DNA of 64,000 nucleotides from NCBI RefSeq assembly GCF_001995175.1, contig NZ_MUKN01000013.1:1-64000 (forward strand), in the 5' to 3' direction. Positions 14,950 through 36,986 of the stretch are shown here, in pieces. This DNA comes from Rathayibacter rhapontici (GTDB taxonomy: Bacteria; Actinomycetota; Actinomycetes; Actinomycetales; Microbacteriaceae). A program made the translations under genes and the position numbers. The notes below the pieces were generated by a model. It made no database searches. It worked only from the letters and a program-made list of their open reading frames with translations, and was not told the origin of the DNA. Position 1 is the stretch's first letter; each line of letters opens with the position of its first letter.

Positions 14950-15825
14950 TCAGGCCGGCAGCCGCAGCAGCCCGCCGGCCGAGCGGATGGTCGCCGCGGC
15001 GACCGCCATCGCCCGCGTGAGCACCGCGGTCGGGTCCGCGTCCGGGCCGTCGAGCCCGGCGACGACCGCCGAGAACGTCGCGTCACCCGCTCCCATCGTG
15101 TCGACGACCGGTCCCGGGGCGCCGGCGATCGGCACGGAGTCGCGCCCCGTCCGCCGCACCAGCGCGGCACCGAGCGGGCCCGCGGTCTCGAGCACCGCGC
15201 CCGCGCCCGCCGCGAGGATCCGCTCCGTCGCCTCCGCGAGGCCCGTGCCGAAGACCAGCTCGGCGTCCTCCGCTCCCACCTTCACCAGGTCGGCGCGGGC
15301 CGAGAGTGCGAGGAGGCCCGCGGCGAAGGCGTCGCGGTCGCGCAGGAGGCCCGGCCGCGGATTAGCGTCGATCGCCAGCCGGGCGCCCCCGGGCACCAGG
15401 GCCTCGAGGGCTGCCACCTCGGCCGCGTCGTCGAACGGGAAGCCGCTGACGACGATCCGGTCGCTGCGGGCGGCGGCCGCGCGCAGCTCGTCGGTCGGGA
15501 GGAGGGTGCGCGAGCGCGACGCCTGGGAGAAGGAGTAGCGGGGCTCGCCGTCGGTCCGGTCCGACACGGCCCGTCCCGTGCCCCGCGGAGCCGGAGTGGC
15601 GAGGAGGGGGACGCCGTGCGCGCGCAGGTGCTCGCGCAGGAGCTGCCCGGCGGCGTCGTCGCCGACCATCCCCGCGAGCAGGGACGGCGTGCCGAGCACG
15701 GCGAGGCCGACCGCGACGTTGAGGGCGGAGCCGCCCGGGACGTCGATCGAGCCGGCGGGATCCCGCATCTCGTCGATCAGGACGTCCCCGAGGACGAGGA
15801 CGGGCGCGGGGAGGGAGGAGGACAT
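14950..15825 (-). CDS. PfkB family carbohydrate kinase, fructokinase-like
   Basis: A 291-aa sugar kinase. PfkB signature 1 is the GG-containing DVPGGSALNVAVGLAVLG (~28-46), and signature 2 is DTMGAGDATFSAVV with catalytic base Asp248. Members phosphorylate fructose, ribose or nucleosides with ATP. It is the last gene of the minus-strand run SBP, permease, permease, LacI, kinase that starts at 20103, next to two GH32 fructosidases, so free fructose is the likely substrate (inferred). There is a 69-base gap from the LacI gene. Confidence 0.85.
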   Translation of the reverse strand: MSSSLPAPVLVLGDVLIDEMRDPAGSIDVPGGSALNVAVGLAVLGTPSLLAGMVGDDAAGQLLREHLRAHGVPLLATPAPRGTGRAVSDRTDGEPRYSFSQASRSRTLLPTDELRAAAARSDRIVVSGFPFDDAAEVAALEALVPGGARLAIDANPRPGLLRDRDAFAAGLLALSARADLVKVGAEDAELVFGTGLAEATERILAAGAGAVLETAGPLGAALVRRTGRDSVPIAGAPGPVVDTMGAGDATFSAVVAGLDGPDADPTAVLTRAMAVAAATIRSAGGLLRLPA

Positions 15826-15894
15826 GACGCCTTTCGAGGAGAGGTGCGCGGGCGCGCCGAACGGCGCCCCCGACGGGGCGGAAGAGCGACGGGA

Positions 15895-16950
15895 TCAGGA
15901 AGCGGGTGCCTGCACGGAGTCGCGGGGGACCAGCGGGCAGGGCAGCAGCACCGGGTGGGAGGCGAGGAGGAGCTCCTCGCCCGATCCGCCGATGAGCCGG
16001 ACGAGCGTGTCGACCGCCCAGGCGCCCATCTCGTAGTGCGGCAGGGCGACCGTGGTGAGCGGCGGGTGGAGGCCCTCGGCGATGATCTCCTGGTTGTCGA
16101 ACCCGACGACGGAGAGGTCGCGCGGGATCTCGAGGTGCAGCTCGGCGGCTGCGCGGTAGGCGCCCATCGCCATGCGGTCGTTGTAGCAGAAGAGGGCGGT
16201 GGGCCGGTCGGGGCGCGAGAGGAGCCGGGTGCCGGCGCGGTAGCCGCCGGGGCTCTCCGAGACCTCCTCGACGATCAGCGACTCGTCGACCTCGAGGCCG
16301 GCCTCGGCGTGCACCTCGCGGTACGCCTGGAGGCGGAGCCGGGTCGCGGGCACGTCGTCGCGGTTCGTGAGGAACCCGATGCGGCGGTGCCCGGCGGAGA
16401 CGAGCTCGGTGACCGCCGCGCGCGCCCCGCCGAGCTCGTCGGGCACGGCCGACGGGATCCGGCCCTCGGTGTCGCGCGCGTCGATCAGCACCGACGGGAT
16501 CGCGTGCAGCGACTCCGGGAGCGAGACCTCGCGGTGGAACATCGTGGCGAAGAGGATGCCGTCGACCTGGTTGTCCATCAGGGTGCGGATGGGGGCGCCG
16601 AGATCGCCGGAGTCGCGCATCGTGTTGATCAGGACGAGCGTGAGGCCGTGCGCGTGGGCGGCCTCCTGAGCGCCGAGGATGATGCGGCCGGCGTGCGGAG
16701 TGGTCGCGATCTCCTCGCTGATCAGGCCGATCATGTCGGTCCGCTGCCGACGGAGGCTGCGCGCGATGCGGTTGGCGCCGTAGCCCAGCCTGGCCGCGGT
16801 GGCCCGCACCCGCTCGCGCGTCTCGTCGCTCGCGCGGGCCGACTCGACGTCGTTGAGGATGTGGGAGACGGTGGTCACGGAGACGCCCGCCTCGCGAGCG
16901 ACGTCGCGGATGCCGACTGCCTTAGGGGTCACGTCTCCCACATCCCTCAT
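15895..16950 (-). CDS. LacI family regulator 1 of the fructan locus
   Basis: A 351-aa LacI/GalR repressor. The HTH is at residues ~13-60 (GIRDVAREAGVSVTTVSHIL, hinge RIARSLRR), followed by a periplasmic-binding-like sensor domain (IGLISEEIATTPHAG ... ALFCYNDRMAMGAY ... VVGFDNQEI). Its place between the permease and kinase genes makes it a local regulator. The 31-bp palindrome at 20196-20226 controls this operon and the divergent GH32, so it is the likely target. The sensor domain resembles LacI 2 at 26397 (same NDRxAMG, GFDxQE and TxxALPHYE blocks), suggesting chemically related effectors. Confidence 0.85.
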   Translation of the reverse strand: MRDVGDVTPKAVGIRDVAREAGVSVTTVSHILNDVESARASDETRERVRATAARLGYGANRIARSLRRQRTDMIGLISEEIATTPHAGRIILGAQEAAHAHGLTLVLINTMRDSGDLGAPIRTLMDNQVDGILFATMFHREVSLPESLHAIPSVLIDARDTEGRIPSAVPDELGGARAAVTELVSAGHRRIGFLTNRDDVPATRLRLQAYREVHAEAGLEVDESLIVEEVSESPGGYRAGTRLLSRPDRPTALFCYNDRMAMGAYRAAAELHLEIPRDLSVVGFDNQEIIAEGLHPPLTTVALPHYEMGAWAVDTLVRLIGGSGEELLLASHPVLLPCPLVPRDSVQAPAS

Positions 16951-16984
16951 CGCTCGAACGTCGAGACTATCGCCGCGCGCCCGC

Positions 16985-17824
16985 TCATCCCTTGACCGCG
17001 CCCAGGGTGAGGCCGGCGACGATGTGCCGCTGCAGCACGAGCGTGAGCAGGATCACGGGCAGGGAGTAGAGGACGGCCAGAGCCGTCATCGCGCCCCAGT
17101 CGAGCCCGAACTGCGTCTGGAAGTTCGCGATCACGATCGGAGTCGTCTGCGCGCGCACCGCGGTGAGCAGCAGCGCGAAGAGGAACTCGTTCCACGAGGC
17201 GAGGAACGCGAAGATCGCGGTGACCGCGACTCCGCCCGCCGTCACGGGGATCACGACGCGCCACAGGGCGCCGAGCCGCGACGCTCCGTCGATCTTGGCC
17301 GCCTCCTCGAGCTCGCCGGGGACCGCCTCGAAGAAGCTCGACATGAGCCAGATCGAGAGGGGGAGCGAGATCGTGGTGTGCGCGATCGCCAGGGCGAGCG
17401 AGGTGTCGGCGATGCCGAGCGTGCGGAAGATCGAGATCATCGGGGCGCCGACGACGATCGGCGGCACCATCCGCATCACGAGCGCGCCGACGATGAAGAT
17501 CCGGCCGAGCCGCGTGCGGAAGCGCGTCACCGCGTAGGCGGCGGGGATCGCGAGCACGAGCGAGACGGCGGTGCTGAGGACCGCGGTCACGATGCTGTTG
17601 ATGAAGGAGGCGACGACTCCGTCGCGGCTGAGCGCCGCCACGTAGTTGTCGAGGGTCCACTGCGTGGGCAGGATCCGCGGGGGGACCGCGATCGTCTCGA
17701 GCGGCGTCTTGAGCGACGTCAGCAGCATGTAGACGAAGGGGAATCCGTAGAGGACGACGGCGAGGGCGAGCGCGATCCAGATGATCGCGCGGGGGCCGAC
17801 GCGGGTGGCTTCGAGTCCGTTCAC
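16985..17824 (-). CDS. CUT1 sugar ABC transporter permease (MalG type), importer 1
   Basis: A 279-aa permease with six helices and the MalG-type EAA loop (EEAAKIDGASRLGALWRVVIP, ~190-210) that contacts the ATPase. The GTG start (17822-17824) overlaps the stop of the MalF-type gene (GTGA). The long reading frame continuing upstream is only a shadow of the MalF and SBP genes. No ATPase is encoded in the cluster, so a shared MsiK-like ATPase elsewhere is assumed. Likely cargo is a fructo-oligosaccharide or DFA, from context. Confidence 0.85.
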   Translation of the reverse strand: MNGLEATRVGPRAIIWIALALAVVLYGFPFVYMLLTSLKTPLETIAVPPRILPTQWTLDNYVAALSRDGVVASFINSIVTAVLSTAVSLVLAIPAAYAVTRFRTRLGRIFIVGALVMRMVPPIVVGAPMISIFRTLGIADTSLALAIAHTTISLPLSIWLMSSFFEAVPGELEEAAKIDGASRLGALWRVVIPVTAGGVAVTAIFAFLASWNEFLFALLLTAVRAQTTPIVIANFQTQFGLDWGAMTALAVLYSLPVILLTLVLQRHIVAGLTLGAVKG

Positions 17825-18675
17825 GAGGTGCTCTCTCCTCCGGGTCGCCAGATCGTGAGGATCGCGACGAGGGCGACGGTCAGCATGACGACGAGGTACA
17901 CCGTGCCCATCGCGCTCGCGAGTCCCGGATCGCCGAACCGGATCATGGTGCGGTAGATCAGCAGCGACATCGTCTCGGTGCTCTGCTGCGGTCCGCCGTT
18001 GGTCTGGATGAGGATGACGTCGAACGCCCGAGCGGCATCGATCCCGCGCAGGATCAGCGCGACCGCGATGACCGGCCGCAGCAGCGGGATGACGATGCGG
18101 AAGAGGATCGCCGGGTAGCGGGCACCGTCCAGGCGCGCGGCCTCGATGACGTCGCCGGGGATGTTCTGGAGGCCCGCGAACAGGACCAGCGTGACGAACG
18201 AGGTGGTCAGCCAGATGTCCGGGATCGCCACTGAGAACAGCGCGATGGACGGGTCGCTCAGCCACGCGATCTGACCGGGCGAGGACAGGATCCCGACGCG
18301 GCTCAGGACCTCGTTGACGATGCCGAAGTTGTCGATCAGGAGGAAGCGCCAGAGCAGTCCGGCCACGATCGGAGCGATCATCAGCGGGTACAGGAAGATC
18401 GTGCGGAAGACCCGCGAGGCGTCGCCCAGCGCCGTGAACAGCAGCGCGACTCCGAGGCCCAGCACGAACTCGAGCGTCACGACCACGATCGTGTAGACGA
18501 GGGTGCGCCACGAGGCGTTGAGGAAGTCGGGCGAGCCGAAAGCGGTGGCGTAGTTGCCGAGGCCGACGAACTCCCGGCTGCCGGCGATCGGGTCGATCTC
18601 GAAGAAGGAGTCGCCGACGAACTGCAGCAGCGGCCAGCCGACGAAGGCGGCGAGGAACAGGGCGGCCGGCACCAT
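17821..18675 (-). CDS. CUT1 sugar ABC transporter permease (MalF type), importer 1; N-terminus uncertain
   Basis: A 284-aa MalF-type permease with six helices and an EAA loop (IEAARLDGARYPAILFRIV). The frame can only be opened at ATG 18675, inside the expected first helix region and with no ribosome site. Upstream, the same strand encodes a typical permease N-terminus (ALTDRRFAALL directly in front), while a better placed GTG at 18769, 15 bases after the SBP stop, is in a different frame. A net loss of two bases (or gain of one) in the G/C runs at about 18700-18760 would join them and add about 30 residues. Confidence 0.75.
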   Translation of the reverse strand: MVPAALFLAAFVGWPLLQFVGDSFFEIDPIAGSREFVGLGNYATAFGSPDFLNASWRTLVYTIVVVTLEFVLGLGVALLFTALGDASRVFRTIFLYPLMIAPIVAGLLWRFLLIDNFGIVNEVLSRVGILSSPGQIAWLSDPSIALFSVAIPDIWLTTSFVTLVLFAGLQNIPGDVIEAARLDGARYPAILFRIVIPLLRPVIAVALILRGIDAARAFDVILIQTNGGPQQSTETMSLLIYRTMIRFGDPGLASAMGTVYLVVMLTVALVAILTIWRPGGESTS

Positions 18676-18783
18676 CAGCAGGGCGGCGAAGCGGCGGTCG
18701 GTGAGGGCGCGGCGCGGGGGCCGGCGCGGCCGGGGAGGTCCCCGACCGGGCGCCGCGCGCGGTGCTCACCTGCGTGGCGGAGG

Positions 18784-20103
18784 TCACTCGGCCACCAGCG
18801 ACTCGACCTGCTGCTTCGCGTCCTCGAGCAGAGCCTGGTTGTCGGCTCCGGGCTCGACGGCCTTCTGCAGCATCGGCACGAGCACGGTGTCGACGATCTG
18901 CTGCCACTCGGCGACCGCGGGGCGGGGGAGCGTGGCGGGCGACTCGAGCGTCTCGAGCAGGGGGCCGTAGTTCTCGTAGCCCTCGACGGTGGAGTACTTC
19001 TCGAGCACCGAGATGCGCGAGGCGAGGCCCAGGCTCGTGTCGGCGCTGAGCTCGTTGTTGTCGAAGGCGTACTGCACGAACTCGAGCGCCTTCTCCTGCT
19101 TCTCGCTCGCCTTCGCGACCGAGAGGTACCAGGCGCCGGGGACGCCGGCGGGGCCGGCCTCGCCGCCGATCATCGGAGCGACGCCCACGTTGCCGGCCAC
19201 GGCCGCGTCGGCGGGGATCTGGCGGTAGGCGTGCGCCCAGAAGCGCATCATCGCGGTCTTGCCCTGGTTGAACAGGTTCTGCGCACCGGCCCAGTCGAGC
19301 TGCGCGGCTCCGGGAGGGGCGTAGGGGAGGAGGCTCGTGTAGAAGTCGAGCGCCTTCCGGCTGTTCTCGTCGCCGAGCGAGACGGCGCCGTCGGTGTCGG
19401 TGACCATGGTGGTCTCGCCGGTCTGCGACAGGGTGGCGAGCCACTCCGTCTCGACCGCGCCCTTGACGTCGGTGCCGTAGAGGTCGGGCGTGCCGTCGCC
19501 GTCGGTGTCCTGCGTGAAGAACTCGGCGGCGTCGGTGTACTGCTCCCAGGTGGTGGGCGGCACGAGGTCGTAGCCGTACTCGGCCTTGAAGGCCTCCTGC
19601 TGGGCCGGGTCCTCGAAGAGGTCGGTGCGGTAGTAGAGGATCTCGGAGTTGGTCCAGGCCGGCATACCGACCTTGCTGCCGTCGACGGTCGCCTCGGCGA
19701 CGAGCGAGGGGAACAGGTCGGCCGTGACCTCGTCGGTGTAGAGGTCGTCGAGCGGAGTGACGGCGCCGGCGAAGGCGGGCAGCCAGATCGCGTCGAGCGC
19801 GGCCACGTCGAACGAGACGCTGCCCGAGGAGAACTCGCTGTTGAGGCGGTTGTAGAGGCCGTCGTAGGGGAGCTCGACGAACTCGATCGAGGTGCCGGTC
19901 TCCTCGGTGTACTGGTCGGCGATGGGCTGCAGCTCGCCGTGGCCGCCGGCCTCGACGAGGACGGTCACGGTGTCGGCGTCGCCGGAGGCACCGGTGCCGC
20001 CGCCGGCACCGCAGCCGGCGAGGACGGTGGTGGCGGTGAGGGCGACGGCGCCGACCACGAGGAGGCGGCGGGCGGGTCGGGGGGAAGGTCTGCGAAGCGA
20101 CAT
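18784..20103 (-). CDS. CUT1 sugar-binding lipoprotein, importer 1
   Basis: A 439-aa extracellular binding protein (SBP family 1). A Sec/lipoprotein signal ends in LAGCGAGG (lipobox Cys ~29); the family blocks VEFVELPYDGLYNRL-like, DGSKVGMPAWTNSEILYYR and LDWAGAQNLFNQGKTAMM follow. A DTDGDGTPD motif resembles a calcium loop. It is first in the operon SBP-permease-permease-LacI-kinase and is transcribed from the palindromic promoter at 20196-20226, giving a leader of about 88 bases. The start ATG at 20101-20103 was chosen over an upstream in-frame start because the lipoprotein signal begins there. Confidence 0.85.
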   Translation of the reverse strand: MSLRRPSPRPARRLLVVGAVALTATTVLAGCGAGGGTGASGDADTVTVLVEAGGHGELQPIADQYTEETGTSIEFVELPYDGLYNRLNSEFSSGSVSFDVAALDAIWLPAFAGAVTPLDDLYTDEVTADLFPSLVAEATVDGSKVGMPAWTNSEILYYRTDLFEDPAQQEAFKAEYGYDLVPPTTWEQYTDAAEFFTQDTDGDGTPDLYGTDVKGAVETEWLATLSQTGETTMVTDTDGAVSLGDENSRKALDFYTSLLPYAPPGAAQLDWAGAQNLFNQGKTAMMRFWAHAYRQIPADAAVAGNVGVAPMIGGEAGPAGVPGAWYLSVAKASEKQEKALEFVQYAFDNNELSADTSLGLASRISVLEKYSTVEGYENYGPLLETLESPATLPRPAVAEWQQIVDTVLVPMLQKAVEPGADNQALLEDAKQQVESLVAE

Positions 20104-20195
20104 CACTTCGGCTCCAATCGAAAGCAGTGGGGGCGGGAGGGGCGGCCGCTGTCGAGGCGACCGCACGACGACAGCATGCATCGAATGCACACGAT

Positions 20196-20226
20196 TGACA
20201 ATACGTTTTGCCAAAACGTATTGTCA
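20196..20226. promoter_or_regulatory. 31-bp palindromic operator with divergent promoters
   Basis: TGACAATACGTTTTG (20196-20210) and CAAAACGTATTGTCA (20212-20226) are exact reverse complements around one C. On the plus strand a -35 TTGACA (20195-20200) and -10 TATTGT (20219-20224) with 18-base spacing predict a start at 20231, the A of the GH32 ATG. By symmetry the minus strand has GTGACA and TATTGT for the SBP operon, starting near 20191. One LacI-type repressor bound here would close both promoters. Confidence 0.75.
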
Positions 20227-20230
20227 CGAT

Positions 20231-21489
20231 ATGACCAGCACCTCCTCCCTCGGCCTCGAGCGCGCCGACGCCCTCCGCCCGCGGATCCACTTCACCGCCG
20301 AGTCCGGCTGGATCAACGATCCGCACGGGCTGACCTTCCACGACGGCCGCTACCACCTCTTCCACCAGTACGTCCCGGGCAGCACGGTCTGGGCCCCGAA
20401 CTGCCACTGGGGCCACGCGGTCGCCACCGACCTCCTGCACTGGGAGCACCGCCCCGTCGCCCTCGCCCCCGGCGACGGTGACGGCGGCATCTGGACGGGC
20501 AGCCTCGTCGTGGCCGAGGACGGCGCTCGGATCCTCTACACCTCGACCGTGGAGGCGGACTACGCGCTCGGCCGGGTCCGCGTCGCCCGGCCGGTCGATG
20601 AGAGCTGGGACGAGTGGGTGAAGGGCGACGTGCTGGTCGAGCCGCCCGCCGACCCCGACGTGGTCGTGTTCCGCGATCCGTTCGTGCTCCGCGAGGGCGA
20701 CGGCTGGCGCATGTTCGTCGGCGCCGGCACCGCGGCGGGCGAGGCTCTGGCGATCACCTACACCTCCAGTGATCTCGACTCGTGGCAGCACGACGGAGTC
20801 GCCGCGCGCCGCTCCTCCGCCGAGCGCGAGCCGGTGTGGACGGGCGCCCTCTGGGAGTGCCCGCAGGTGGTCGAGGTCGACGGCCGGCACGTGCTGATCA
20901 GCTCCGTCTGGGACGACGACGTCCTGCACTACGCGGCCTACGGCATCGGCGACTACGCCGACGGGCGCTTCGAGGCGCGCGACTGGGGGCGCCTGAGCTT
21001 CGGCGACTCCTACTACGCCCCCTCGTTCTTCCGGGACGAGGACGCCGGCCGTGCCTGATGTTCTGGATGCGCGGAGTCGCCGACGCCGAGGCCGGCTGGA
21101 GCAGCGCGCTGAGCCTCCCGCACCTGCTCGCGATCCGCGACGAGCGCCTCGTGCTGCTGCCGCACCCGGCGTGGGCGGGCGGTCGGATCGTCGAGGCCGA
21201 GGGCCCGCTGGACGGCCCCGTGCGCCTCGACTGGACGCCGGAGACCCCGGGCGACCGCCTCGAGATCGCCCCGTCGTCCGCGCTCGTGTGGAGCGGCTCC
21301 GAGCTCGCGCTCGAGCGGGTCGGCTCGGAGCCGTGGACCGCGCCCCATGCGGGCGGCCCGGTCGCGGTGGCCGTGGATGGACCGGTGCTGGAGGCCGTGA
21401 CGGCCGCCGGAGTGCTGGGCGGGCCGATTGCCCCGGCTACCGGCGTCCGCGTGCTCGGCGGCCGGGTCGAGGCGCGCGCGATCGACTGA
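20231..21489 (+). pseudogene. GH32 beta-fructosidase 1 (frameshifted)
   Basis: Cytoplasmic glycoside hydrolase family 32 enzyme releasing terminal beta-linked fructose from fructo-oligosaccharides or sucrose. The three catalytic motifs are present: WINDPHG with nucleophile Asp30, FRDPF with Asp149, and WECPQ with acid/base Glu209. The frame stops at 21056-21058 and resumes one base away: CGTGCC TGATG needs one more C to read RALMFWMRG. Total length would be 420 residues, with a short C-terminal sandwich. The transcript is predicted leaderless from the 20196 palindrome. There is no signal peptide, so substrate must be imported. The motifs are intact, so a sequencing deletion is the simpler explanation. 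Confidence 0.85.
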
Positions 21490-21547: not shown

Positions 21548-21613
21548 TTGATCAAACGCTTGAACATCTCCGCCGACCGCGCTAGCGTCCTAGTTGTTCA
21601 AGCGTTTGATCAA
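21548..21613 (+). promoter_or_regulatory. Promoter flanked by paired LacI-type operators (GH32-2 operon)
   Basis: Two exact inverted copies of a 19-bp site face each other: TTGATCAAACGCTTGAACA (21548-21566) and TGTTCAAGCGTTTGATCAA (21595-21613). Each contains a near-palindromic core TCAA(A/G)CG(C/T)TTGA with a central CG; the core centres are 46 bp apart. Between them a -35 TTGAAC (21560-21565) and -10 TAGCGT (21583-21588) with 17-base spacing fit a sigma-70-like promoter. The left site covers the -35 and the right site covers the transcript start. Confidence 0.7.
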
Positions 21614-21624
21614 AGGTGATCCCC

Positions 21625-23145
21625 ATGACAGAGACGATCGGCACCGCCGGCGAGGCCGAGTCCTCCTCCGCCCTCGACCGCAGCGGCGCCCCCGCCCACG
21701 ACCTGCTCTTCCAGCCCGCCCGCGGCTGGGTCGGCGACGTGATCCCCGTCGAGCGCGACGGGGAGTTCCACCTCTTCTACCTGCACGAGCTGCGCGACGA
21801 TCCCAAGCCCGGCACCGCGTGGTCGCTGGTGACGACCCGGGACTTCGTGCACTTCGAGGACCGCGGCGTCTCGCTCCCGCACGGCGGAGCGGATGAGGAC
21901 GACTTCAACGCGTACACCGGCTCGGTCGTCCACGACGACGGCGTCGACCACCTCTTCTACACCGGCCACAACCCGTGGCGGCTGGGCCCCGACGGAGTCA
22001 CTCCGCTGCAGGTCGTCATGCACGCGACGAGCGTCGACGGGATGCGCACCTGGGTGAAGCACCCGGAGGACACCTTCGGCGCGACCGAGGGGTTCGAGCC
22101 CGGCGACTGGCGCGACCCGTTCGTCTTCCGCTCGGAGCCCGAGGGGGAGTGGCGGATGCTGCTCGCCGCCCGCCACGTCGACGGTCCTTCGCGCCGCCGC
22201 GGCACGATCGCGCAGCTCGTCTCGAGCGATCTGCGCAGCTGGCGCCCGGTCGCTCCGTTCTGGGACCCCCGCCGGTACATCGCGCACGAGTGCCCGGACG
22301 TCTTCCCGTGGGGTGCCCACTGGTACCTCGTGTCGTCGGAGTTCTCGGAGGACTTCACCACGCGCTACCGGATCGCGGACTCGGTCGACGGGCCCTGGCG
22401 CGTGCCGCTGCACGACTCCGTCGACGGCCGGGCGTTCTACGCGTCGAAGAGCGTCGAGCGCGACGGGCGGCGGTTCTTCGCCGGCTGGATCGCCTCCAAG
22501 GAGGACTCCCGCGACGACGGCGCCTACCAGTGGGCCGGCACGATGTCGGTGCTCGAGGCCCTGCAGCGCGACGACGGCACCCTGGGGTTCACGCTCCCGG
22601 AGGAGGTCCTCGCGGCCTTCGACGAGGAGCTGCCCGTCGTGCTCCACGACGAGAGCGGAGCGGTCGACTCGCGCGACGAGATCCGCCTCGCGGTGCCCGA
22701 CGGCTACGCGGCCCGACTCGGCGCCTTCGACCTGCCGCCGGTCTTCTCGGCCTCGGTCCGCTTCGACATCGCCGAGGGCACGACCGAGTGCGGGATCCTC
22801 CTGCGCAGCAGCGCCGACGGCGACGAGTCGTACGTCCTGCGCCTCGAGCCCACGCGGAACCGCATGGTGCTCGACCGCTGGCCGCGCCGCCTCACCGGTC
22901 CGATGCAGTGGCAGATCTCGGGCGACGTGCCCTTCGCCGTCGAGCTCGAGCGCCCGGCCGACCTCTCTCCCGGCGAGCACCGCCTCGACCTGATCGTCGA
23001 CGGCTCCGCGCTCGTCGCGGTCCTCGATCGTTCCGTCGCACTCAGCGCGCGGATCTACGACCGGCCCACCGGCCGGATCGGACTCTTCGCGGGGGAGGGG
23101 GAGGTCGTGTTCCGCGACCTCCGACTCCGCCGCAGGACGACCTGA
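21625..23145 (+). CDS. GH32-family protein 2 (divergent nucleophile motif)
   Basis: A 506-aa cytoplasmic GH32-like enzyme with five-bladed propeller (residues ~25-310) and C-terminal beta-sandwich (~330-500). WRDPF (Asp164) and HECPD (acid/base Glu222) are present, but the first motif reads GWVGDVIPV (Asp38) instead of WMNDPNG, so the subsite -1 pocket differs from invertases. It could cleave an unusual fructoside such as inulobiose or a DFA-derived disaccharide. The ATG at 21625 is used because AAAGGTG precedes it; an in-frame GTG at 21616 is the alternative. First gene of the operon GH32, SBP, permease, permease, LacI, GH172. Confidence 0.8.
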   Translation: MTETIGTAGEAESSSALDRSGAPAHDLLFQPARGWVGDVIPVERDGEFHLFYLHELRDDPKPGTAWSLVTTRDFVHFEDRGVSLPHGGADEDDFNAYTGSVVHDDGVDHLFYTGHNPWRLGPDGVTPLQVVMHATSVDGMRTWVKHPEDTFGATEGFEPGDWRDPFVFRSEPEGEWRMLLAARHVDGPSRRRGTIAQLVSSDLRSWRPVAPFWDPRRYIAHECPDVFPWGAHWYLVSSEFSEDFTTRYRIADSVDGPWRVPLHDSVDGRAFYASKSVERDGRRFFAGWIASKEDSRDDGAYQWAGTMSVLEALQRDDGTLGFTLPEEVLAAFDEELPVVLHDESGAVDSRDEIRLAVPDGYAARLGAFDLPPVFSASVRFDIAEGTTECGILLRSSADGDESYVLRLEPTRNRMVLDRWPRRLTGPMQWQISGDVPFAVELERPADLSPGEHRLDLIVDGSALVAVLDRSVALSARIYDRPTGRIGLFAGEGEVVFRDLRLRRRTT

Positions 23146-28725: not shown

Positions 28726-28741
28726 ATGTAATGCGTTACAT
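28726..28741 (+). promoter_or_regulatory. Candidate LacI operator in front of LacI 3
   Basis: ATGTAATGCGTTACAT is a 16-bp dyad (ATGTAA / TTACAT) with the central TGCG expected of a LacI-family site. It sits 69 bases before the LacI 3 start and is the first regulatory candidate for the LacI 3, importer 3, GH116 operon. Confidence 0.55.
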
Positions 28742-29826: not shown

Positions 29827-29863
29827 TCCTCCGTCCACCCTCTCCCTCAGAAACGAGACCCTC

Positions 29864-31135
29864 ATGAGCACTTCGCGAGACGACGATGTCCGCACCGGTC
29901 GCCGACGCCGTCGAGCAGCCACCCTCGCCACGGCCTTCGCCTCGGTCCTCCTCCTCGCCGGCTGCGCCGGCTCCGGATCCTCCTCCGACGCCCTCACCGT
30001 CTACAACTGGGGCAGCGCCGACGAGGCGAAGGTCTACGACAGCGTCTTCACCGAGTTCGGCGCCGCGAACGGCGTCACCGTCGAGGACAACGTCGTCCCG
30101 GTGAACGCCTGGGGCGACTACGTCTCGAAGCTCGCCACCCAGGTGGCATCGGGCAACTCCCCGGACCTGCTGAACATGGCGATGGAGGGCACCCGCCTCT
30201 CCGAGGACAAGGGCCTGCTCACTCCGCTGGACGAGTACCTCTCGGAGAGCGAGCTCGCCGAGCGCCTCGACTCCGTGCCCGAGGTCCTGAAGGACGCGTA
30301 CACCGTCGACGGGAAGCTCTACGAGATCCCCAACGGCTACCAGACGATGGTGATCTACGCGAACACCGACCTCTTCGCCGAGAAGGGGGTGCCGCTGCCC
30401 GACCCGGACTGGACGTGGGACGACTTCCTCGCGACCGCGCAGGCGCTGAACGGGGACGACGTCAAGGGCTTCGGCCTGCCGTGGGGCTTCTTCCAGATGC
30501 AGCCGTGGCTCTCGAGCAACGGCGCCTCGCTCGTGAGCGACGACCTGTCGGCACCCACCCTGACCGATCCCGCCGTCGTGGAGTCGGTCACGTTCATCCG
30601 GGACCTGGTGCAGACCCACGAAGTGTCGCCGGATCCGACCAACATCGACGTGTACTCGCAGTTCTCGGCCGGCAAGTTCGGGATGATCGCCGCGGGCCGC
30701 TGGCCGATCCCCGCGTGGTCCTCGAGCGGCTTCGACAGCTACGTCGCCCTGCCCTGGCCGAAGATGACCTCCCACACCACGGTCGTCGGAGGATCCGGCT
30801 GGGCGATCAGCGCGAAGTCCGAGAACAAGGACGCCGCGTGGAAGGCGATCGAGGCCCTCATGGACCCCGAGACGATCACCTCGATCAGCGACATCGGGCA
30901 GCAGATCCCGATCTTCCCCGGAACGGCGACCCCGACCGGCGACAAGGCCGCCGACGACGCCCTCGCGTTCCTCGAGACGGCTCCGGACGACGCCAAGGCC
31001 GTACCGGCCCCGCCGTGGTTCGACACCCTCGAGTCGGTGACGATGCGCTACATGTCGCAGATCGTGACCGGCCAGCTCGAGCCGGAGGACGGGCTGCAGC
31101 AGGCCCAGGACGAGATCGAGGCGGCGATCGAATGA
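29864..31135 (+). CDS. CUT1 sugar-binding lipoprotein, importer 3
   Basis: A 423-aa binding protein with an Arg-rich n-region, signal ending at LLLAGCAGSG (Cys ~35) and SBP-family-1 blocks (TVYNWGSADEAKVYDSVFTEF, LYEIPNGYQTMVIYANTDLF, SGWAISAKSENKDAAWKAIE). Spacing from LacI 3 is 37 bases. The downstream permease start overlaps its stop (ATGA). The substrate is unknown; the GH116 enzyme at the operon end suggests a beta-glucoside or similar. Confidence 0.85.
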   Translation: MSTSRDDDVRTGRRRRRAATLATAFASVLLLAGCAGSGSSSDALTVYNWGSADEAKVYDSVFTEFGAANGVTVEDNVVPVNAWGDYVSKLATQVASGNSPDLLNMAMEGTRLSEDKGLLTPLDEYLSESELAERLDSVPEVLKDAYTVDGKLYEIPNGYQTMVIYANTDLFAEKGVPLPDPDWTWDDFLATAQALNGDDVKGFGLPWGFFQMQPWLSSNGASLVSDDLSAPTLTDPAVVESVTFIRDLVQTHEVSPDPTNIDVYSQFSAGKFGMIAAGRWPIPAWSSSGFDSYVALPWPKMTSHTTVVGGSGWAISAKSENKDAAWKAIEALMDPETITSISDIGQQIPIFPGTATPTGDKAADDALAFLETAPDDAKAVPAPPWFDTLESVTMRYMSQIVTGQLEPEDGLQQAQDEIEAAIE

Positions 31136-32058
31136 CGGCCGGCGTGCTCGACGTCGCGAGACCACGGGCGGCCGTCGCCCGTCGGCGACGACCGGTCAAC
31201 CGCACGGCGTGGGTCTTCGTCGCACCGGCGACGCTCGGATTCCTCGTCTTCATCCTGCTCCCGCTGCTGCTGACGATCGTCTACAGCTTCACGGAGTACG
31301 ACCTGTTCGACTCGCCGCGCTTCGTCGGCCTCGAGAACTACACCGCCATGCTCAGCGACTCGCGGCTGGCGCACGTCTATCTGAACACCGCCGTCTTCAC
31401 GCTGCTGGCGACCCCGCTGAACGTGGGGCTCGCGCTCGTCCTGGCGGTCGGGCTGCACCAGGTGCTCAACCGGTTCGTCAGCGCGTTCGCGAGAGCGGCG
31501 TTCTTCTTCCCCTCGCTGGTCGGGCTGGTGTTCGTCGCCATCATCTGGCAGTTCTTCTTCCAGACCGACTTCGGCATCATCAACTACTACCTCGGGCTCG
31601 TGGGCGTCGACCCGGTGCCCTGGCTGTCGAGTCCGGAGTGGGCGATCCCGTCGGTCGTGATCCTGGACGTCTGGAAGAACGTCGGACTCGCGACGATCAT
31701 CCTGCTGGCCGGCCTCCAGGGGATCCCGGCCGTCTACTACCAGGCGGCCGCGATCGACGGGGCGGGAGGATGGCGCCGGTTCCGGTCCATCACCGTCCCG
31801 CTGCTCTCGCCGCAGCTGTTCTTCGTGCTCACGCTCTACCTGATCGGCGCGGTGAAGGTGTTCGAGTCGATCGTGGTCCTCACCGACGGCGGCCCGGGCG
31901 ACGCGAGCCGCAGCGTGGTGATGTACATCTACGAGAAGGCCTTCAAGTCGTTCGACTTCGGCTACGCGTCCGCGGTCTCCGTGACGCTCCTCGTGATCGT
32001 CTCCCTCGTCACGCTGGTGCAGTTCCGCGTCTCGCGACGGTGGGTGCACTATGAGTAG
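31132..32058 (+). CDS. CUT1 sugar ABC transporter permease (MalF type), importer 3
   Basis: A 308-aa permease with a basic cytoplasmic N-terminus, six helices (first: AWVFVAPATLGFLVFILLP) and the EAA loop YQAAAIDGAGGWRRFRSITVP near residue 205. The ATG at 31132 overlaps the SBP 3 stop. The long reading frame entering from 30415 is the SBP gene's shadow. Confidence 0.85.
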   Translation: MTAGVLDVARPRAAVARRRRPVNRTAWVFVAPATLGFLVFILLPLLLTIVYSFTEYDLFDSPRFVGLENYTAMLSDSRLAHVYLNTAVFTLLATPLNVGLALVLAVGLHQVLNRFVSAFARAAFFFPSLVGLVFVAIIWQFFFQTDFGIINYYLGLVGVDPVPWLSSPEWAIPSVVILDVWKNVGLATIILLAGLQGIPAVYYQAAAIDGAGGWRRFRSITVPLLSPQLFFVLTLYLIGAVKVFESIVVLTDGGPGDASRSVVMYIYEKAFKSFDFGYASAVSVTLLVIVSLVTLVQFRVSRRWVHYE

Positions 32059-32923
32059 GCGCGACGGCCGGTCCCGGCTGCGGCGTCTGGGTGACGCCCT
32101 CCCGACCGCGGTCCTGGTCCTGGGCGGGCTGGCGATGCTGCTGCCGTTCCTCTTCATGGTCTCGACCTCGCTGCGACCGGTGAGCGATTCGGTCACGGTG
32201 CCGCCCCAGTGGCTGCCCGCGACGGTCGACTTCTCGAACTACGCCCGGCTGGCCTCGCAGGAGTACCCGGTCCTGACGTTCCTGCAGAACTCGCTCGTGG
32301 TCTCGATCCTGTCGACGGCGGGGATCGTCGTGACCAGTGCGCTGGCGGGCTACGCCTTCGCGAAGTTCGAGTTCCGGTTCCGCGAGCCGCTGTTCGCCCT
32401 GCTGCTGCTGTCCCTGATGATCCCCATCCAGGTGACCATCGTCCCGCTCTACGCGATCATGCAGCAGCTCGGGCTCCTCAACTCGCTCTGGTCGCTGATC
32501 CTGCCGGCACTGCTGGGGGCCTTCGCTCCGGGTATCGCCGGCGCGTTCGGGATCTTCCTGATGCGGCAGTTCTTCCGGGGCACCCCGGATGCGCTGCTGG
32601 AAGCGGCGATGCTCGACGGAGCGAGCAGGGCGCGGGCCTTCTTCCAGGTCGCGCTGCCCCTCGCGAAGCCGGCGATCGCCTCGCTCGCGCTGATCGTCTT
32701 CATCCTGTCCTGGAACGACTACTTCTCTCCGCTGATCTTCCTCAACAGCACCGAGACGATGACGCTCCCCGTCGGGATCCAGTCGCTGCGCCCGCCCTTC
32801 GGGCAGGGCAGCAGCCTCGTGATGGCGGCCGTGACCGTCGCCCTCCTCCCCGTCCTCGTCGTGTTCCTCGTCGGCCAGCGCTGGATCGTCCAGGGCTTCA
32901 CGCGATCGGGGCTCAACGAATGA
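32051..32923 (+). CDS. CUT1 sugar ABC transporter permease (MalG type), importer 3
   Basis: A 290-aa permease with six helices and the EAA loop LEAAMLDGASRARAFFQVALP near residue 185. It overlaps the MalF-type gene by 8 bases. Together with 29864-32058 it forms a complete CUT1 membrane module without an ATPase gene. Confidence 0.85.
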   Translation: MSRRDGRSRLRRLGDALPTAVLVLGGLAMLLPFLFMVSTSLRPVSDSVTVPPQWLPATVDFSNYARLASQEYPVLTFLQNSLVVSILSTAGIVVTSALAGYAFAKFEFRFREPLFALLLLSLMIPIQVTIVPLYAIMQQLGLLNSLWSLILPALLGAFAPGIAGAFGIFLMRQFFRGTPDALLEAAMLDGASRARAFFQVALPLAKPAIASLALIVFILSWNDYFSPLIFLNSTETMTLPVGIQSLRPPFGQGSSLVMAAVTVALLPVLVVFLVGQRWIVQGFTRSGLNE

Positions 32924-32976
32924 CCCTCCTCACCACCCCCACCTCTCACCTGTCACCGACGAAGGAGTCCCCCTCG

Positions 32977-35478
32977 ATGAACGACCACGACGACTGGACC
33001 GGCGCCGCCCAGGAGCGCGTCCGCCACTACCCGGGCACGGCCTCGGAGGCCGCGTTCCTGCTCGGCGGGATCGGCACGGGCAACGTCTCGATCGGCGCCC
33101 GCGGCGAGTTCCGCGACTGGGAGATCTTCAACTGGCCCGGGAAGGGCCAGTACATGCCGTTCACCTTCTTCGCGATCCGCACCCGGACGCTGAGCGGGGA
33201 GGTGAGGACGGCCGTCCTCGAGTCCGAGATCGCCGGCCCGCACGCCAAGTCGCACGGCTACTTCAACGGCGAGCTCGCCGGGCTGCCCCGCTTCAGGACC
33301 TCGCGGATGTGGTCGCTCTACCCCTCGGTGTTCGTGGAGCTGACCTCGCCGGATCTCCCCGTGACGGTCGTGCTCGAGGCGTTCACGCCCTTCGTCCCGG
33401 GCGACGAGCTCGATTCGGGGATCCCGGGAGCGGTCCTGCGCTACCACGTCACCAATCTGACGGAGGAGTCGCTCGACGTCTCGGTCGTCGGCTCGCTGAC
33501 GAACGCGCTCGGCTTCGGCGGCTACGACGTCTTCGGCAACCTGAAGCTCTCGGGCACCCCCTCGAACGTGCTGCGCGAGGAGGAGGAGCTGACGGGGCTC
33601 TTCTACACGTCCGACGACGCCCCCGGCACGGAGCAGTTCGGCACCATGGCCTTCGCGACCACGGAGCCCGACGCGAACTACCGCCCGGAGTGGCTGCAGG
33701 GGCAGTGGACCGACAACGCCCAGGACTTCTGGGACGACTTCACCGACGACGGCGCCCTCGACTTCTTCCACTCCGTCGACGCGCCCGGCTCGGAGCTCGA
33801 CCACTTCTACGACTTCAGCTACCTCCGCCTGCGCGAGAAGATCGGCTCGATCGCCGTGCCCAAGCTCCTCGGAGCCGGCGGCACCGAGACGTTCGAGTTC
33901 GCCTTCACCTGGCACGTCCCGCACCGGCCGAAGGGCTGGGTCGAGGTCGACGCGGACCTCGAGCGGCACGCGGCCGGCGGCTACCCGACGATCCGCAACC
34001 ACTACGCCCTCGTCTACGAGGATGCCTGGGCGGCGCTCGCCGATCTGCTCGGCCGGCTCGACTCGCTCGACGCCCGTTCGCGCGCGTTCACCCGCTCGCT
34101 GTACTCCTCGTCGGTGCCCGACGTGGTGCTGGAGGCCGTCGCCACCAACATCACGGTCATCCGGAGCCACACCTGCTTCTGGCTGGAGGACGGGAACTTC
34201 TACGGCTGGGAGGGGATCCGCAACGACGTCGGATGCGGCCTCGGCAACGTGAACCACGTCTGGAACTACGCTCAGGGCCTCGCGTTCCTCTTCCCGCGGC
34301 TCGAGGTCTCGATGCGCCGGATGGAGTTCCTCCTCGAGATCGACGAGCACGGAGCCGTCCCCTTCCGCTCCCGGCAGTCGCTCGGCGAGGAGCGCTGGAA
34401 GATGGTGCCGGCCGCGGACGGGCAGCTGGGCGCCGTCGTGCGCGCCTGCCGCGAATGGCGGCTGACCGGGGACGACGACTACCTGCGCGAGATCTGGCCG
34501 TCGCTCGTCCTCGCGATGGAGTACGCGATCACCACCTGGGACACCGACGGCGACCTGGTGCCCGACTCCCAGCAGAGCAACACCTACGACATCGAGTTCT
34601 ACGGTGCCAACGGGATGATGGGCACGCTCATGGTCGCGGCGCTGCGGGCGATGTCGGACATGGCGGACGGCCTGGCCGAGTCCGAGGCGTCGGCCGACTA
34701 CGCCGAGAAGGCCGCGCGCTCGAGCGCCGCTCTCGACGCCCTGTGCTGGAACGGCTCGTTCTACGTGCAGGACCTCGCGGATCCGGACGCCCACCGCTAC
34801 CAGTTCGGCCGGGGCTGCCACTCGGACCAGCTCCTGGGGCAGTTCCTCGCGTCCGTGACCGGCCTGGGTCACGTCCTGCCGGCGGAGCGGGTCCGCTCGG
34901 CGCTGTCCGCGATCGTCCGTCACAACCTGCGCGACGAGATGAGGACGGTCGGCACCGTCCAGCGCGTCTACGCACTGAACGACGAGGCCGGACTGGTGCT
35001 GTGCAGTTGGCCCGACGGCGGGCGCCCGCGGTTCCCGTTCGGCTACAGCGACGAGGTGTGGACCGGTGTCGAGTACCAGGTCGCCGCGTCGCTCGTCTAC
35101 GAGGGCCTCGTCGAGGACGCCGTGGCGATCGTGACCGAGGTGCGCGCCCGCCAGGACGGCGTGCTCCGGAACCCCTGGAGCGAGAACGAGGCCGGCCACC
35201 ACTACAGCAGGTCCCTGGCGAGCTGGGCGCTGCTCACCGCCTACTCCGGCTTCACAGCCGATCTCGGACGCGGACGCGTGCGGTTCGCTCCGGTCGTCGA
35301 GGGCGACTTCTCGACGTTCTGGTCGCACGGGAAGGGCTGGGGCACCTACACCCAGACCGTCGGCGGCGACGGCCGGCTCGTGGCGGTCGTCGAGGTGATC
35401 GAGGGCGAGCTCGGCACGGAGTCGCCCGAGACGCCCGCGGACGAGGTGCGGATCGAGGCCGCGGGAGCCCGGGTCTGA
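32977..35478 (+). CDS. GH116 family glucosidase (GBA2/bile-acid-glucosidase type)
   Basis: An 833-aa cytoplasmic enzyme. The N-terminal beta-sandwich (residues ~15-360; AFLLGGIGTGNVSIGARGEF, RDWEIFNWPGKG) precedes an (alpha/alpha)6 barrel. By comparison with family members, the nucleophile is Glu404 in FWLEDGNFYGWEG and the acid/base is Asp538 in NTYDIEF; GYSDEVWTGVEYQ is a further hallmark. GH116 members act on beta-glucosides, beta-xylosides or glucosylceramide. GAAGGAG, nine bases before ATG 32977, decides the start; an ATG at 32920 overlapping the permease stop would add 19 residues. Last gene of the LacI 3 operon. Confidence 0.8.
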   Translation: MNDHDDWTGAAQERVRHYPGTASEAAFLLGGIGTGNVSIGARGEFRDWEIFNWPGKGQYMPFTFFAIRTRTLSGEVRTAVLESEIAGPHAKSHGYFNGELAGLPRFRTSRMWSLYPSVFVELTSPDLPVTVVLEAFTPFVPGDELDSGIPGAVLRYHVTNLTEESLDVSVVGSLTNALGFGGYDVFGNLKLSGTPSNVLREEEELTGLFYTSDDAPGTEQFGTMAFATTEPDANYRPEWLQGQWTDNAQDFWDDFTDDGALDFFHSVDAPGSELDHFYDFSYLRLREKIGSIAVPKLLGAGGTETFEFAFTWHVPHRPKGWVEVDADLERHAAGGYPTIRNHYALVYEDAWAALADLLGRLDSLDARSRAFTRSLYSSSVPDVVLEAVATNITVIRSHTCFWLEDGNFYGWEGIRNDVGCGLGNVNHVWNYAQGLAFLFPRLEVSMRRMEFLLEIDEHGAVPFRSRQSLGEERWKMVPAADGQLGAVVRACREWRLTGDDDYLREIWPSLVLAMEYAITTWDTDGDLVPDSQQSNTYDIEFYGANGMMGTLMVAALRAMSDMADGLAESEASADYAEKAARSSAALDALCWNGSFYVQDLADPDAHRYQFGRGCHSDQLLGQFLASVTGLGHVLPAERVRSALSAIVRHNLRDEMRTVGTVQRVYALNDEAGLVLCSWPDGGRPRFPFGYSDEVWTGVEYQVAASLVYEGLVEDAVAIVTEVRARQDGVLRNPWSENEAGHHYSRSLASWALLTAYSGFTADLGRGRVRFAPVVEGDFSTFWSHGKGWGTYTQTVGGDGRLVAVVEVIEGELGTESPETPADEVRIEAAGARV

Positions 35479-35483
35479 GCATC

Positions 35484-35522
35484 GACGGACGGCTCGCCCC
35501 GACGAGGGGCGGGCCGTTCGTC
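35484..35522. terminator. Bidirectional stem-loop terminator between GH116 and GH91
   Basis: A 17-bp stem with two G-T pairs (left arm ending CGGCTCGCCCC, right arm starting GGGGCGGGCCG) and a GACGA loop, between the convergent stops at 35478 and 35541. It can serve both transcripts. Confidence 0.75.
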
Positions 35523-35540
35523 GTGCGGGCTGCGACCGGG

Positions 35541-36875
35541 TCAGCCCGGGATCGACGGAGTCGTGCGCACCGCGTTGACCGAGCGGTCGGCGACGACCTC
35601 GTCCTCGGTGCCGGAGTCGAGGATCGTGTTGCCGGCGGACGCGGCGTCGACCTGCACCGCCACGACTGCGAGCCGCGCCGAGGTCGTCGTCGAGAGCAGC
35701 GCGTCGACCTGCGCCTCGAAGGCGGATCCGCCCGAGGCGGCGCGGACGTCCTTGCCGACGGTGTGGTTGCCCGAGACCTGGTTGCCGGTGCCGCCGACCA
35801 GGCGGACGATCACCGGCGCGGATCCCTCGGGGCGCACCTTCCGGGCGTCCACCACCTCCGAGACGTGGTTCGCGAGCACGGAGTTGTCGCTGCCGTCGAT
35901 CCGGACGAGGCCGAAGTCGTCGTCGCGGCCGTTGTCGATGCCGAGGAACGGCGTCCACGGCTCGTGGTCGCGCAGCAGGTGGTTGGAGGCGACGAGGTTC
36001 TCGGAGCTGCCCTCGTCGAGCAGCACCATGCCGGGGTAGAAGGAGTGCAGGCGGTTGGCGACGACGCTCGAGCGCGTCACTCCGCTCAGGTGCACGCTGC
36101 TCGCGCCGCGGGGGAACACGTTGTTCGCGGTGATCAGCAGCCCGCCGTGGTTCTCGGCGCGGATCGAGTGCCCGTGCGGGCCGGCGCCGAGCAGGTTGTC
36201 GGTGATCTTCGACGCCTGGCCCCAGCCGAGGAGCTCGATGCAGCTGCCGCTCTCGGCGAGGAAGTTGTCGTGGATCGAGAGCGCGTCGGCGTGGTGGATC
36301 GTGAGCGCGTGCTCGAGGTAGACGAAGCCCATCCCGGTGACGCGGAAGGAGTCGTTGGCGCTCGTGACCAGGATGCCCGTGCGGCCGTTCACGTACGTGT
36401 TCTCGGGGTGGACGTCGGTGCCGTCGGCCTCGAAGTGCATGCCGTCGAGGCAGAAGTCGACGAACTCGACCGAGCTGATCCGCGGGCTGCCCTCGCGGCG
36501 GACGAGGAACGCGGCGCCCTCCTCCTGCGTGGCGCCTCCCTCCAGCAGCACCTGGATGCGGCTGCCGCCCGGCCACAGCTCGTGCAGGTCCGGCCACTCC
36601 TCCTCGGGCACGTTGAAGCGGATGCTGGAGGACGTGAAGCCGTGGCCGGAGCCCTGGATGCGCAGGTAGCTGATGTCGATGACGACCTGCGTGCGGAGCG
36701 GGTAGTCGCCCGGCGGGAGGTGGATCACGGCGCCGGGCCTGCCGCCCTGCCGCTCGTCGGTGGCGGTCTGCCGGCTCCGGACGTCGTCGAGGATGCTGTT
36801 CAGCACCTCGCCGACGTCGCGGGTGGGGTCGCCGACGGGCCAGGTCGTGACGTCGTACTGGAAGGGGCCGGGCAT
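35541..36875 (-). CDS. GH91 beta-helix enzyme: inulin fructotransferase or DFA III hydrolase
   Basis: A 444-aa right-handed beta-helix protein. Blocks matching GH91 inulin fructotransferases as I remember them: YDVTTWP (7-13), PGAVIHLPPGDYPLRTQVVID (47-67), GSGHGFTSSSIRF (75-87), GMGFVYLEHAL (181-191) and FYPGMV. The catalytic pair, Asp and Glu eleven residues apart, is Asp203/Glu214 in HDNFLAESGSCIE. GH91 enzymes either cut inulin to DFA III or DFA I without water, or (DFA-IIIase branch) hydrolyse DFA III to inulobiose. Known fructotransferases are mostly secreted; this one starts MPGPFQYDV with no signal peptide, favouring an intracellular role. The start at 36875 excludes a non-coding extension. 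Confidence 0.85.
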   Translation of the reverse strand: MPGPFQYDVTTWPVGDPTRDVGEVLNSILDDVRSRQTATDERQGGRPGAVIHLPPGDYPLRTQVVIDISYLRIQGSGHGFTSSSIRFNVPEEEWPDLHELWPGGSRIQVLLEGGATQEEGAAFLVRREGSPRISSVEFVDFCLDGMHFEADGTDVHPENTYVNGRTGILVTSANDSFRVTGMGFVYLEHALTIHHADALSIHDNFLAESGSCIELLGWGQASKITDNLLGAGPHGHSIRAENHGGLLITANNVFPRGASSVHLSGVTRSSVVANRLHSFYPGMVLLDEGSSENLVASNHLLRDHEPWTPFLGIDNGRDDDFGLVRIDGSDNSVLANHVSEVVDARKVRPEGSAPVIVRLVGGTGNQVSGNHTVGKDVRAASGGSAFEAQVDALLSTTTSARLAVVAVQVDAASAGNTILDSGTEDEVVADRSVNAVRTTPSIPG

Positions 36876-36970
36876 CGGTGCTCGCTCTCGTGTTCTGGGG
36901 GTGCGGCGTGCGGAGGGAGCGCCTCCGGATCGAGGAGCCCACGGCGAGGAGTCGCTCCGCACTGCCATGC

Positions 36971-36986
36971 GACAAAACGATTTGTC
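36971..36986 (-). promoter_or_regulatory. LacI-type operator upstream of GH91
   Basis: GACAAAACGATTTGTC (near dyad, central CG) lies 96 bases before the GH91 start. Read on the gene's strand, GACAAATCGTTTTGTC matches 13 of 16 positions of GACAATACGTTTTGCC in the 20196 palindrome. This puts GH91 in the same regulon as importer 1 and GH32-1, probably under LacI 1. Confidence 0.6.

Follow-up and report, generated by a model that had tools for sequence, protein, structure and literature searches.

Does one pathway or several account for the genes of sugar uptake and breakdown that crowd positions 14950-36875 of a 64,000-nucleotide stretch of Rathayibacter rhapontici DNA? This stretch, which we call the window, comes from contig 13 (NZ_MUKN01000013.1) of a 3.88-Mb draft assembly that has 136 contigs and is 93.85% complete. 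The locus had been read, from the letters alone, as a single catabolic pathway for fructans and difructose anhydrides (DFAs). Domain and profile matches confirmed every gene named in this original prediction, namely glycoside hydrolases (GH) of families GH91, GH172 and GH116, two of family GH32, a PfkB kinase, three importers and three LacI regulators. The single-pathway view had to be given up, however, because the genes fall into three modules, each with an operator type of its own. We conclude that the system is real, composite and partly known. Each module probably serves the uptake and digestion of small fructofuranosyl sugars, chiefly DFAs that other organisms make from fructans. Sequence and context establish which genes are present, which share an operator, how far the modules are conserved, how the importers are related and what the gate residue of GH172 is; the substrates, the specificity of the importers and the roles of GH172, GH32b and GH116 are deduced from these.

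The PfkB, LacI1 and importer 1 genes lie on the minus strand, the genes from GH32a through GH116 on the plus strand, and GH91 on the minus strand again, convergent with GH116. No importer ATPase gene was recognised among the locus genes; a shared ATPase encoded elsewhere is assumed, no search for one having been made.

The DFA III module and its operator

Module 1 consists of the following genes and operators; SBP denotes a solute-binding protein.

14950-15825, minus strand: PfkB-type carbohydrate kinase, probable fructokinase (PF00294, E 5e-29; best PDB match a fructokinase, 66.6 bits)
15895-16950, minus strand: LacI1 regulator (54-62% identical to its homologues in GH91 loci of relatives)
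16985-17824, minus strand: importer 1 permease b (PF00528; homologues 71-76%)
17821-18675, minus strand: importer 1 permease a, whose start codon is uncertain (homologues 72-80%)
18784-20103, minus strand: importer 1 solute-binding lipoprotein SBP1 (PF01547; homologues 57-69%)
20195-20227, no strand: a pair of overlapping LacI1-type operators, spaced by 13 bp, in the SBP1-GH32a interval (palindrome search)
20231-21489, plus strand: GH32a beta-fructofuranosidase, frame broken near 21049-21058 (PF00251, E 3e-55; best PDB match a beta-fructosidase, 141.5 bits)
35541-36875, minus strand: GH91 DFA III hydrolase, the outlier of the module (72.5% identity across 444 residues with the DFA-IIIase of A. 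chlorophenolicus)
36969-36988, no strand: LacI1-type operator upstream of GH91 (palindrome search)

The reference for GH91 is the crystallised A. chlorophenolicus enzyme (AcDFA-IIIase). The phmmer scores of GH91 were 719-720 bits to DFA-IIIase, 364 and 356 bits to DFA III-forming inulin fructotransferases and 257 bits to another fructotransferase, so that by both bit score and identity it is closer to DFA-IIIase than to the inulin fructotransferases. Its N-terminus, read by eye only and without a signal-peptide predictor, begins like that of AcDFA-IIIase. GH91 was found at E up to 1e-60 in 12 genomes, its own included, of 396 sampled in the order. We compared the neighbourhoods in eight relatives whose GH91 is 64-72% identical and left out three with a distant GH91 (41-47%). 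All eight loci carry homologues of SBP1, both importer 1 permeases and LacI1; a GH32 close to GH32a is present in seven of them and a PfkB gene in three. The window's PfkB protein also matched the NCBIfam fructokinase model, at a score far under its cut-off. The genome holds one GH91, and no second copy of fructotransferase type was found in it, unlike in three other genomes (G441, G516 and G279), suggesting that the organism looks like a user of DFA III rather than a maker.

GH91 lies about 15 kb from the remainder of module 1, with modules 2 and 3 in between. The same GACAAAACGATTTGTC-like sequence nevertheless occurs at 20195-20227, before importer 1, and at 36969-36988, upstream of GH91. 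Allowing up to 3 mismatches, the pattern gave 6 strand-wise matches (3 sites) in the window and 0 in 100 shuffles. Since it had been drawn from these same sites, conservation in relatives is the real test: sites of this type lie upstream of SBP1 in all eight GH91 loci of the relatives, as a pair with the 13-bp spacing in seven, and single-base shuffles of these loci gave 0 to 0.4 matches per locus. Because the operator is shared between GH91 and importer 1 and is conserved in relatives, we place the distant GH91 in the LacI1 regulon. The shared operators claimed for the locus thus proved to be one pair, that of SBP1/GH32a and GH91, whereas the palindromes before GH32b and LacI3 differ from it. 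One regulon covering the entire locus was ruled out, the LacI1 operator alone being common to separate sites.

In the mechanism that we favour, importer 1 would bring in DFA III, a cytosolic GH91 would open it to inulobiose, a GH32 would split inulobiose to fructose and PfkB would phosphorylate the fructose, all under LacI1, which would act through a single operator type on importer 1, on GH32a and on the distant GH91. The prediction that GH91 is a DFA hydrolase was upheld by the 72.5% identity, the conserved context and the operator, which place it with the DFA III type together with an importer, a regulator and a GH32. As judged from these comparisons, module 1 can be firmly assigned to the known DFA III module and forms the DFA III part of the locus.

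The second module and the gate residue of GH172

Do modules 2 and 3 handle DFAs as well? The different operators of the three modules would also fit an alternative in which module 1 alone does so, modules 2 and 3 serving unrelated furanosides or oligosaccharides and sharing the location through entry into a variable region. The region is indeed variable. In a genome of the same genus (G171), homologues of the flanks 14083-14748 (48%) and 43413-45392 (84%) lie just 222 bp apart; the stretch 14749-43412 (28.7 kb, locus included) is therefore extra in the window genome or lost in G171. The G+C content is 69.4-71.5% over 16-36 kb, 73-75% at 0-12 and 36-44 kb, and 70.7-72.5% farther right. The alternative also agrees with the rarity of GH91 and GH172 in one locus. 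The content of module 2, which combines a GH32 with a GH172 whose gate residue is small, and the kind of importer in module 3 speak against it, and we consider it unlikely. The genes of module 2 are as follows.

21548-21567 and 21594-21613, no strand: two LacI2-type palindromes before GH32b, differing from the LacI1 type
21616-23145, plus strand: GH32b, a divergent GH32 with WVGD, WRDP and HECP motifs (PF00251, E 1.3e-32; best PDB match the GH32 6r3r, 133 bits)
23178-24512, plus strand: importer 2 solute-binding protein SBP2 (solute-binding domain match; locus comparison)
24564-25445, plus strand: importer 2 permease a (locus comparison)
25442-26338, plus strand: importer 2 permease b (locus comparison)
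26397-27446, plus strand: LacI2 regulator (domain match; locus comparison)
27572-28663, plus strand: GH172 (DUF2961, E 2.3e-82) with gate residue Ala253 (alignment; tree)

GH32b is intact and is the sole other clear GH32 in the genome besides GH32a. The best PDB match of GH172 was an exo-alpha-D-arabinofuranosidase (279.5 bits, vs 131 bits for the fructofuranosidase aFFase1); it is 43% identical to the arabinofuranosidase ExoMA1 and 33.5% identical over the 206 residues of the aFFase1 fragment compared. This raises a second alternative, that GH172 and GH116 are the exo-alpha- and exo-beta-D-arabinofuranosidase pair of a D-arabinan system and stand beside the DFA III module by chance.

The gate residue bears directly on this alternative. 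According to PMC10509167, Gly299 of aFFase1 leaves room for the C1 hydroxymethyl of fructose, whereas Asn253 of ExoMA1 blocks this group. In our alignment, both residues correspond to Ala253 of the window GH172. The -1 subsite is otherwise kept, W220, E223, E245, D246 and W252 preceding this alanine as Trp267, Glu270, Glu291, Asp292 and Trp298 precede Gly299 in aFFase1; the Glu85 of aFFase1 falls outside the aligned stretch. A family search in 199 genomes found GH172 in 8, with 3 copies at 63-68% identity carrying Ala at the gate and 5 at 48-50% carrying Asn. A scan of named genomes gave 309 confirmed GH172 loci, and in the best 80 of these the gate residue was Ala in 42, Cys in 19, Gly in 13, Ser in 6 and Asn in none. 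A GH32 gene lay within about 10 kb of 13/42 Ala-gate, 8/13 Gly-gate and 1/6 Ser-gate copies (Ala and Gly combined, 21/55), and of 0/19 Cys-gate and 0/11 Asn-gate copies; these gate groups are also clades (7 gate changes in a 104-row quick tree), so that the loci are not independent. As an observation apart, the Cys-gate clade makes up 19 Paenibacillus-type loci (part of L061-L103), and GH172 genes about 50% identical to that of the window are carried by many plasmids of Klebsiella and Sinorhizobium and by some of Enterococcus.

In the quick tree, in which ExoMA1 was not a row, 11 Asn-gate rows split off at 100% support in the Shimodaira-Hasegawa-like approximate likelihood ratio test (SH-aLRT), with the window GH172 outside; the D-arabinan-clade copies carry Asn at the gate in 11 of 11. 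The window GH172 grouped instead, at 95% SH-aLRT, with those of L026, L033 and L065, which carry module 2 genes, outside both the Asn clade and the DFA I clade. Of the best 80 loci, 11 combine GH172 with GH32b, SBP2 and the two permeases of importer 2 (L033, L043, L065, L066, L068, L075, L076, L077, L081, L082 and L084), and in 8 the order is that of the window. These loci belong to Cellulomonas, Paenibacillus and Fontibacillus; L026, L070 and L073 carry parts of the module.

One assignment of GH172 was rejected and another became less likely. It does not qualify as a DFA I hydrolase of aFFase1 type, its identity lying below the range, above about 47%, used in PMC8605356, Lys147 being gapped and its clade being another. 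It is unlikely to be an exo-alpha-D-arabinofuranosidase of ExoMA1 type, having Ala for the blocking Asn253 and standing outside the Asn-gate clade. We conclude that it represents a third type of GH172, for which alpha-D-fructofuranosidase activity is more likely than action on arabinofuranosides. Action on fructofuranosides, as originally proposed, is probable in view of the small gate residue, though the enzyme stands outside the DFA I hydrolase clade. In module 2, importer 2 would take up a second fructofuranosyl sugar, of which GH172 would cut the alpha-D-fructofuranosyl bond and GH32b the beta bond.

A probable importer of DFA I type beside a GH116 gene

The genes of module 3 are as follows.

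28727-28740, no strand: LacI3-type palindrome TGTAATGCGTTACA before LacI3, differing from the LacI1 type
28810-29826, plus strand: LacI3 regulator (domain match)
29864-31135, plus strand: importer 3 solute-binding protein SBP3
31132-32058, plus strand: importer 3 permease a (261-337 bits in DFA I-type loci, permease scores in the order given)
32051-32923, plus strand: importer 3 permease b (239-282 bits in DFA I-type loci, likewise)
32977-35478, plus strand: GH116, exo-beta-D-arabinofuranosidase-like, with altered nucleophile loop (domain match; PDB match; alignment)

SBP3 scored 255-358 bits in all four loci with a DFA I-type GH172 (G803, Rhizobium phaseoli R744, Rhizobium T136 and Arthrobacter NicSoilB4), where both permeases then follow; the GH172 of these loci is 60-63% identical to the aFFase1 fragment, has Gly at the gate and retains Lys147. 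In the remaining locus groups SBP3 scored at most 150 bits. A homologue of SBP3 at E up to 1e-30 was present in 11 of 72,556 plasmid records, each time with a DFA I-type GH172 within 2 kb; conversely, 11 of the 12 plasmid records with a DFA I-type GH172 had an SBP3 homologue. In the 396 genomes of the order, with 4 candidates per genome scored, SBP3 was found at E 1e-55 in its own genome only. No GH172 of aFFase1 type stands beside importer 3, where GH116 holds the slot, and at E 1e-20 the aFFase1 fragment matched nothing in the window's own genome. From these data, importer 3 is most likely of DFA I type, and GH116 occupies the place of a DFA I hydrolase.

The original prediction had listed GH116 and left its type undiscussed. 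It is of exo-beta-D-arabinofuranosidase type (662 bits and 45% identity to ExoMA2) rather than a beta-glucosidase (about 103 bits). GH116 keeps the catalytic Glu431 and Asp557 and the O2-binding His446 and Arg483 (numbered as published; the match implies that numbers in the chain are higher by 4), the roles of these residues being taken from PMC10509167. Relatives at 43-49% identity in 8 genomes sit in D-arabinan-type loci, 6 of which have an Asn-gate GH172 and a LacI3-like gene beside GH116, the other two contigs being 18.6 and 5.4 kb long. LacI3 itself is 35-40% identical to the LacI genes of D-arabinan loci. All of this would fit the D-arabinan alternative. Its Asn gate is missing from the window GH172, however, and the GH183 endo-D-arabinanase present in 7 of 7 tested genomes with such a GH116 was absent from a search of the 93.85%-complete window genome. 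The importers of GH116/D-arabinan loci reached at most 68 bits to SBP3, one genome (G126) apart, and no D-arabinose isomerase was recognised by eye in the locus. By gate residue, tree, GH183 search and importer scores, the D-arabinan alternative is lowered to what we regard as decidedly improbable. A case named as counting against the fructan reading, a GH172 acting only on D-arabinan, is likewise disfavoured by the Ala gate, the different clade and the GH183 result.

GH116 also differs from its relatives in sequence. At 10 columns of the alignment it departs from a residue shared by all 23 other rows; the next rows depart at 7, 5 and 3 such columns and the ExoMA2-like rows at 0 to 3. The loop that follows the nucleophile (CG...VN for SC...CT) and the N...C motif (here S...A), both altered in the window GH116 only among 24 rows, account for six of the 10 changes; the P value computed on these segments is descriptive, as they were picked after the private changes had been located. 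The altered loop was found in 0 of 22 whole or near-whole other loci aligned (fragment L131 was dropped), and the G126 GH116 also retains SC...CT. No other GH116 like that of the window turned up in the 396 genomes of the order (24 matches, own included, E up to 1e-100), 291 genomes of the phylum gave its own genome only (E up to 1e-110), and none of the best 80 GH172 loci held a GH116 at E 1e-6.

In the favoured explanation, importer 3 would bring in a DFA I-type sugar, and GH116 would join in its breakdown in the slot held elsewhere by a DFA I-type GH172. A tentative extension, possible though doubtful, is that this GH116 is the first to act on fructofuranosyl bonds: it would cut the beta-D-fructofuranosyl bond of the DFA I or related difructose brought in by importer 3, the Ala-gate GH172 would finish the remaining alpha-linked difructose, reversing the order of aFFase1 and GH32, and the changes in the nucleophile loop would make space for the C1 hydroxymethyl group, which is absent from D-arabinose. 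Among the open-licence papers listed, no title or abstract reported a fructoside-active GH116.

Several observations weigh against the explanation that all three modules serve fructofuranosyl sugars. The LacI2-type palindromes have no convincing counterpart in 13 module-2-like loci, and the LacI3-type palindrome was not found in the other loci searched. The Lys147 of the aFFase1 +1 subsite is gapped in the window GH172. No GH32 lies in reach of 34 of the 55 Ala- or Gly-gate GH172 loci, and the family search gave 3 further Ala-gate loci that all lack one. Loci with both GH91 and GH172 are rare: GH91 occurs in 2 of the best 80 GH172 loci, and within about 20 kb none of the 8 GH91 loci has a GH172. 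The plasmid records that link SBP3 to DFA I-type GH172 include 7, out of 11, that are near-identical R. phaseoli plasmids, leaving about 3 independent lineages (4 with G803). The next-best SBP3 match (150 bits), that of G126, lies beside a D-arabinan-type GH116, and the best LacI3 scores, 186 bits to a LacI of a D-arabinan locus and 188 bits to one of a DFA I locus, do not separate the two.

The GH32a gene falls into two reading frames (20231-21058 and 21049-21489); in 4 relatives both parts share a single frame. A ThrE-type exporter gene 17 kb off on the same contig (37264-38921, minus strand) is split likewise, so that the breaks are likely draft sequencing errors. That the break in GH32a is real and the DFA III pathway no longer works is very improbable, given this second break and the intact GH32b. 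Between GH91 and the ThrE gene lie three 73-nt direct repeats (37057-37275; 68-71% identity to the first). A large open reading frame running from window position 62147 to contig position 65197 (L174) looks, by eye, secreted and GH43-like and has a weak GH32 profile match (23.6 bits).

If the favoured explanation is true, importers 1 and 3 are genomic markers for scavengers of DFA III and of DFA I-type sugars, the gate residue gives a quick rule for telling fructose-type from arabinose-type members of the large and little-characterised GH172 family, and GH116 gains a fructofuranoside-active branch. The locus would also caution against taking GH172 with GH116 for D-arabinan degradation on the strength of family names.

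Comparison with known systems

How much of the locus is known? As described in PMC11538131, the DFA III pathway of Blautia consists of an importer, GH91 and GH32, and the Arthrobacter/Blautia module of GH91, GH32 and an ATP-binding cassette (ABC) importer, with a kinase in some. The window likewise has a GH91 of the DFA-IIIase subfamily, a GH32, an importer and a kinase, and it shares LacI1 and its operator with its GH91-bearing relatives. It differs from the module so described in that its GH91 lies about 15 kb away, with two other modules in between.

Compared with the D-arabinan locus of Microbacterium arabinogalactanolyticum (GH183, ExoMA1 and ExoMA2; PMC10509167), the window has the same GH172 and GH116 pair, without secretion signals and at 43% and 45% identity. 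It differs in that no GH183 was found in its genome, Ala replaces the gate Asn, the GH116 nucleophile loop is altered and the importers are others. The DFA I module of Bifidobacterium dentium (aFFase1 BBDE_2040, GH32 BBDE_2039 and ABC genes; PMC8605356) resembles the window in joining GH172, GH32 and an importer without secretion signals, and importer 3 is of the kind found beside aFFase1-like GH172 in modules of this type. Unlike in that module as described, the window GH172 belongs to another clade, with an Ala gate and without Lys147, and importer 3 is paired with GH116.

It had been stated that no characterised locus with this combination was known. GH91, GH172 and GH32 lie close together in Streptomyces davaonensis (BN159_0187, 0193 and 0194), as PMC8605356 reports, and plasmids of R. 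phaseoli, a bean-nodule rhizobium, carry GH91, an aFFase1-like GH172 and GH32 in about 10.5 kb (L194, 7763-18248). On pRphaR744b of R. phaseoli R744, LacI-SBP-permeases-UgpC-GH91 adjoins LacI-permeases-SBP-GH172-UgpC and GH32; these importers carry their own UgpC ATPase genes, of which none was recognised in the window locus. GH91 and GH172 lie within 10 kb of each other in at least 7 R. phaseoli records, as counted over 60 of the 84 GH91 records, and GH91 lies within 10 kb of an Ala-gate GH172 in Curtobacterium MCBD17_013 (L046) and Leifsonia shinshuensis (L052). The co-occurrence proposed as a check on the original prediction thus exists in these genomes and plasmids, and is rare in the GH172 and GH91 loci counted above.

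The combination of GH91, GH172 and GH32 is therefore not new, and the window resembles S. davaonensis, as far as described, and R. phaseoli in bringing these three together with importers. Both of those have a DFA I-type GH172 and no GH116, unlike the window. The new part of the locus, as far as its sequence indicates, is the GH116 inside a DFA I-type import module.

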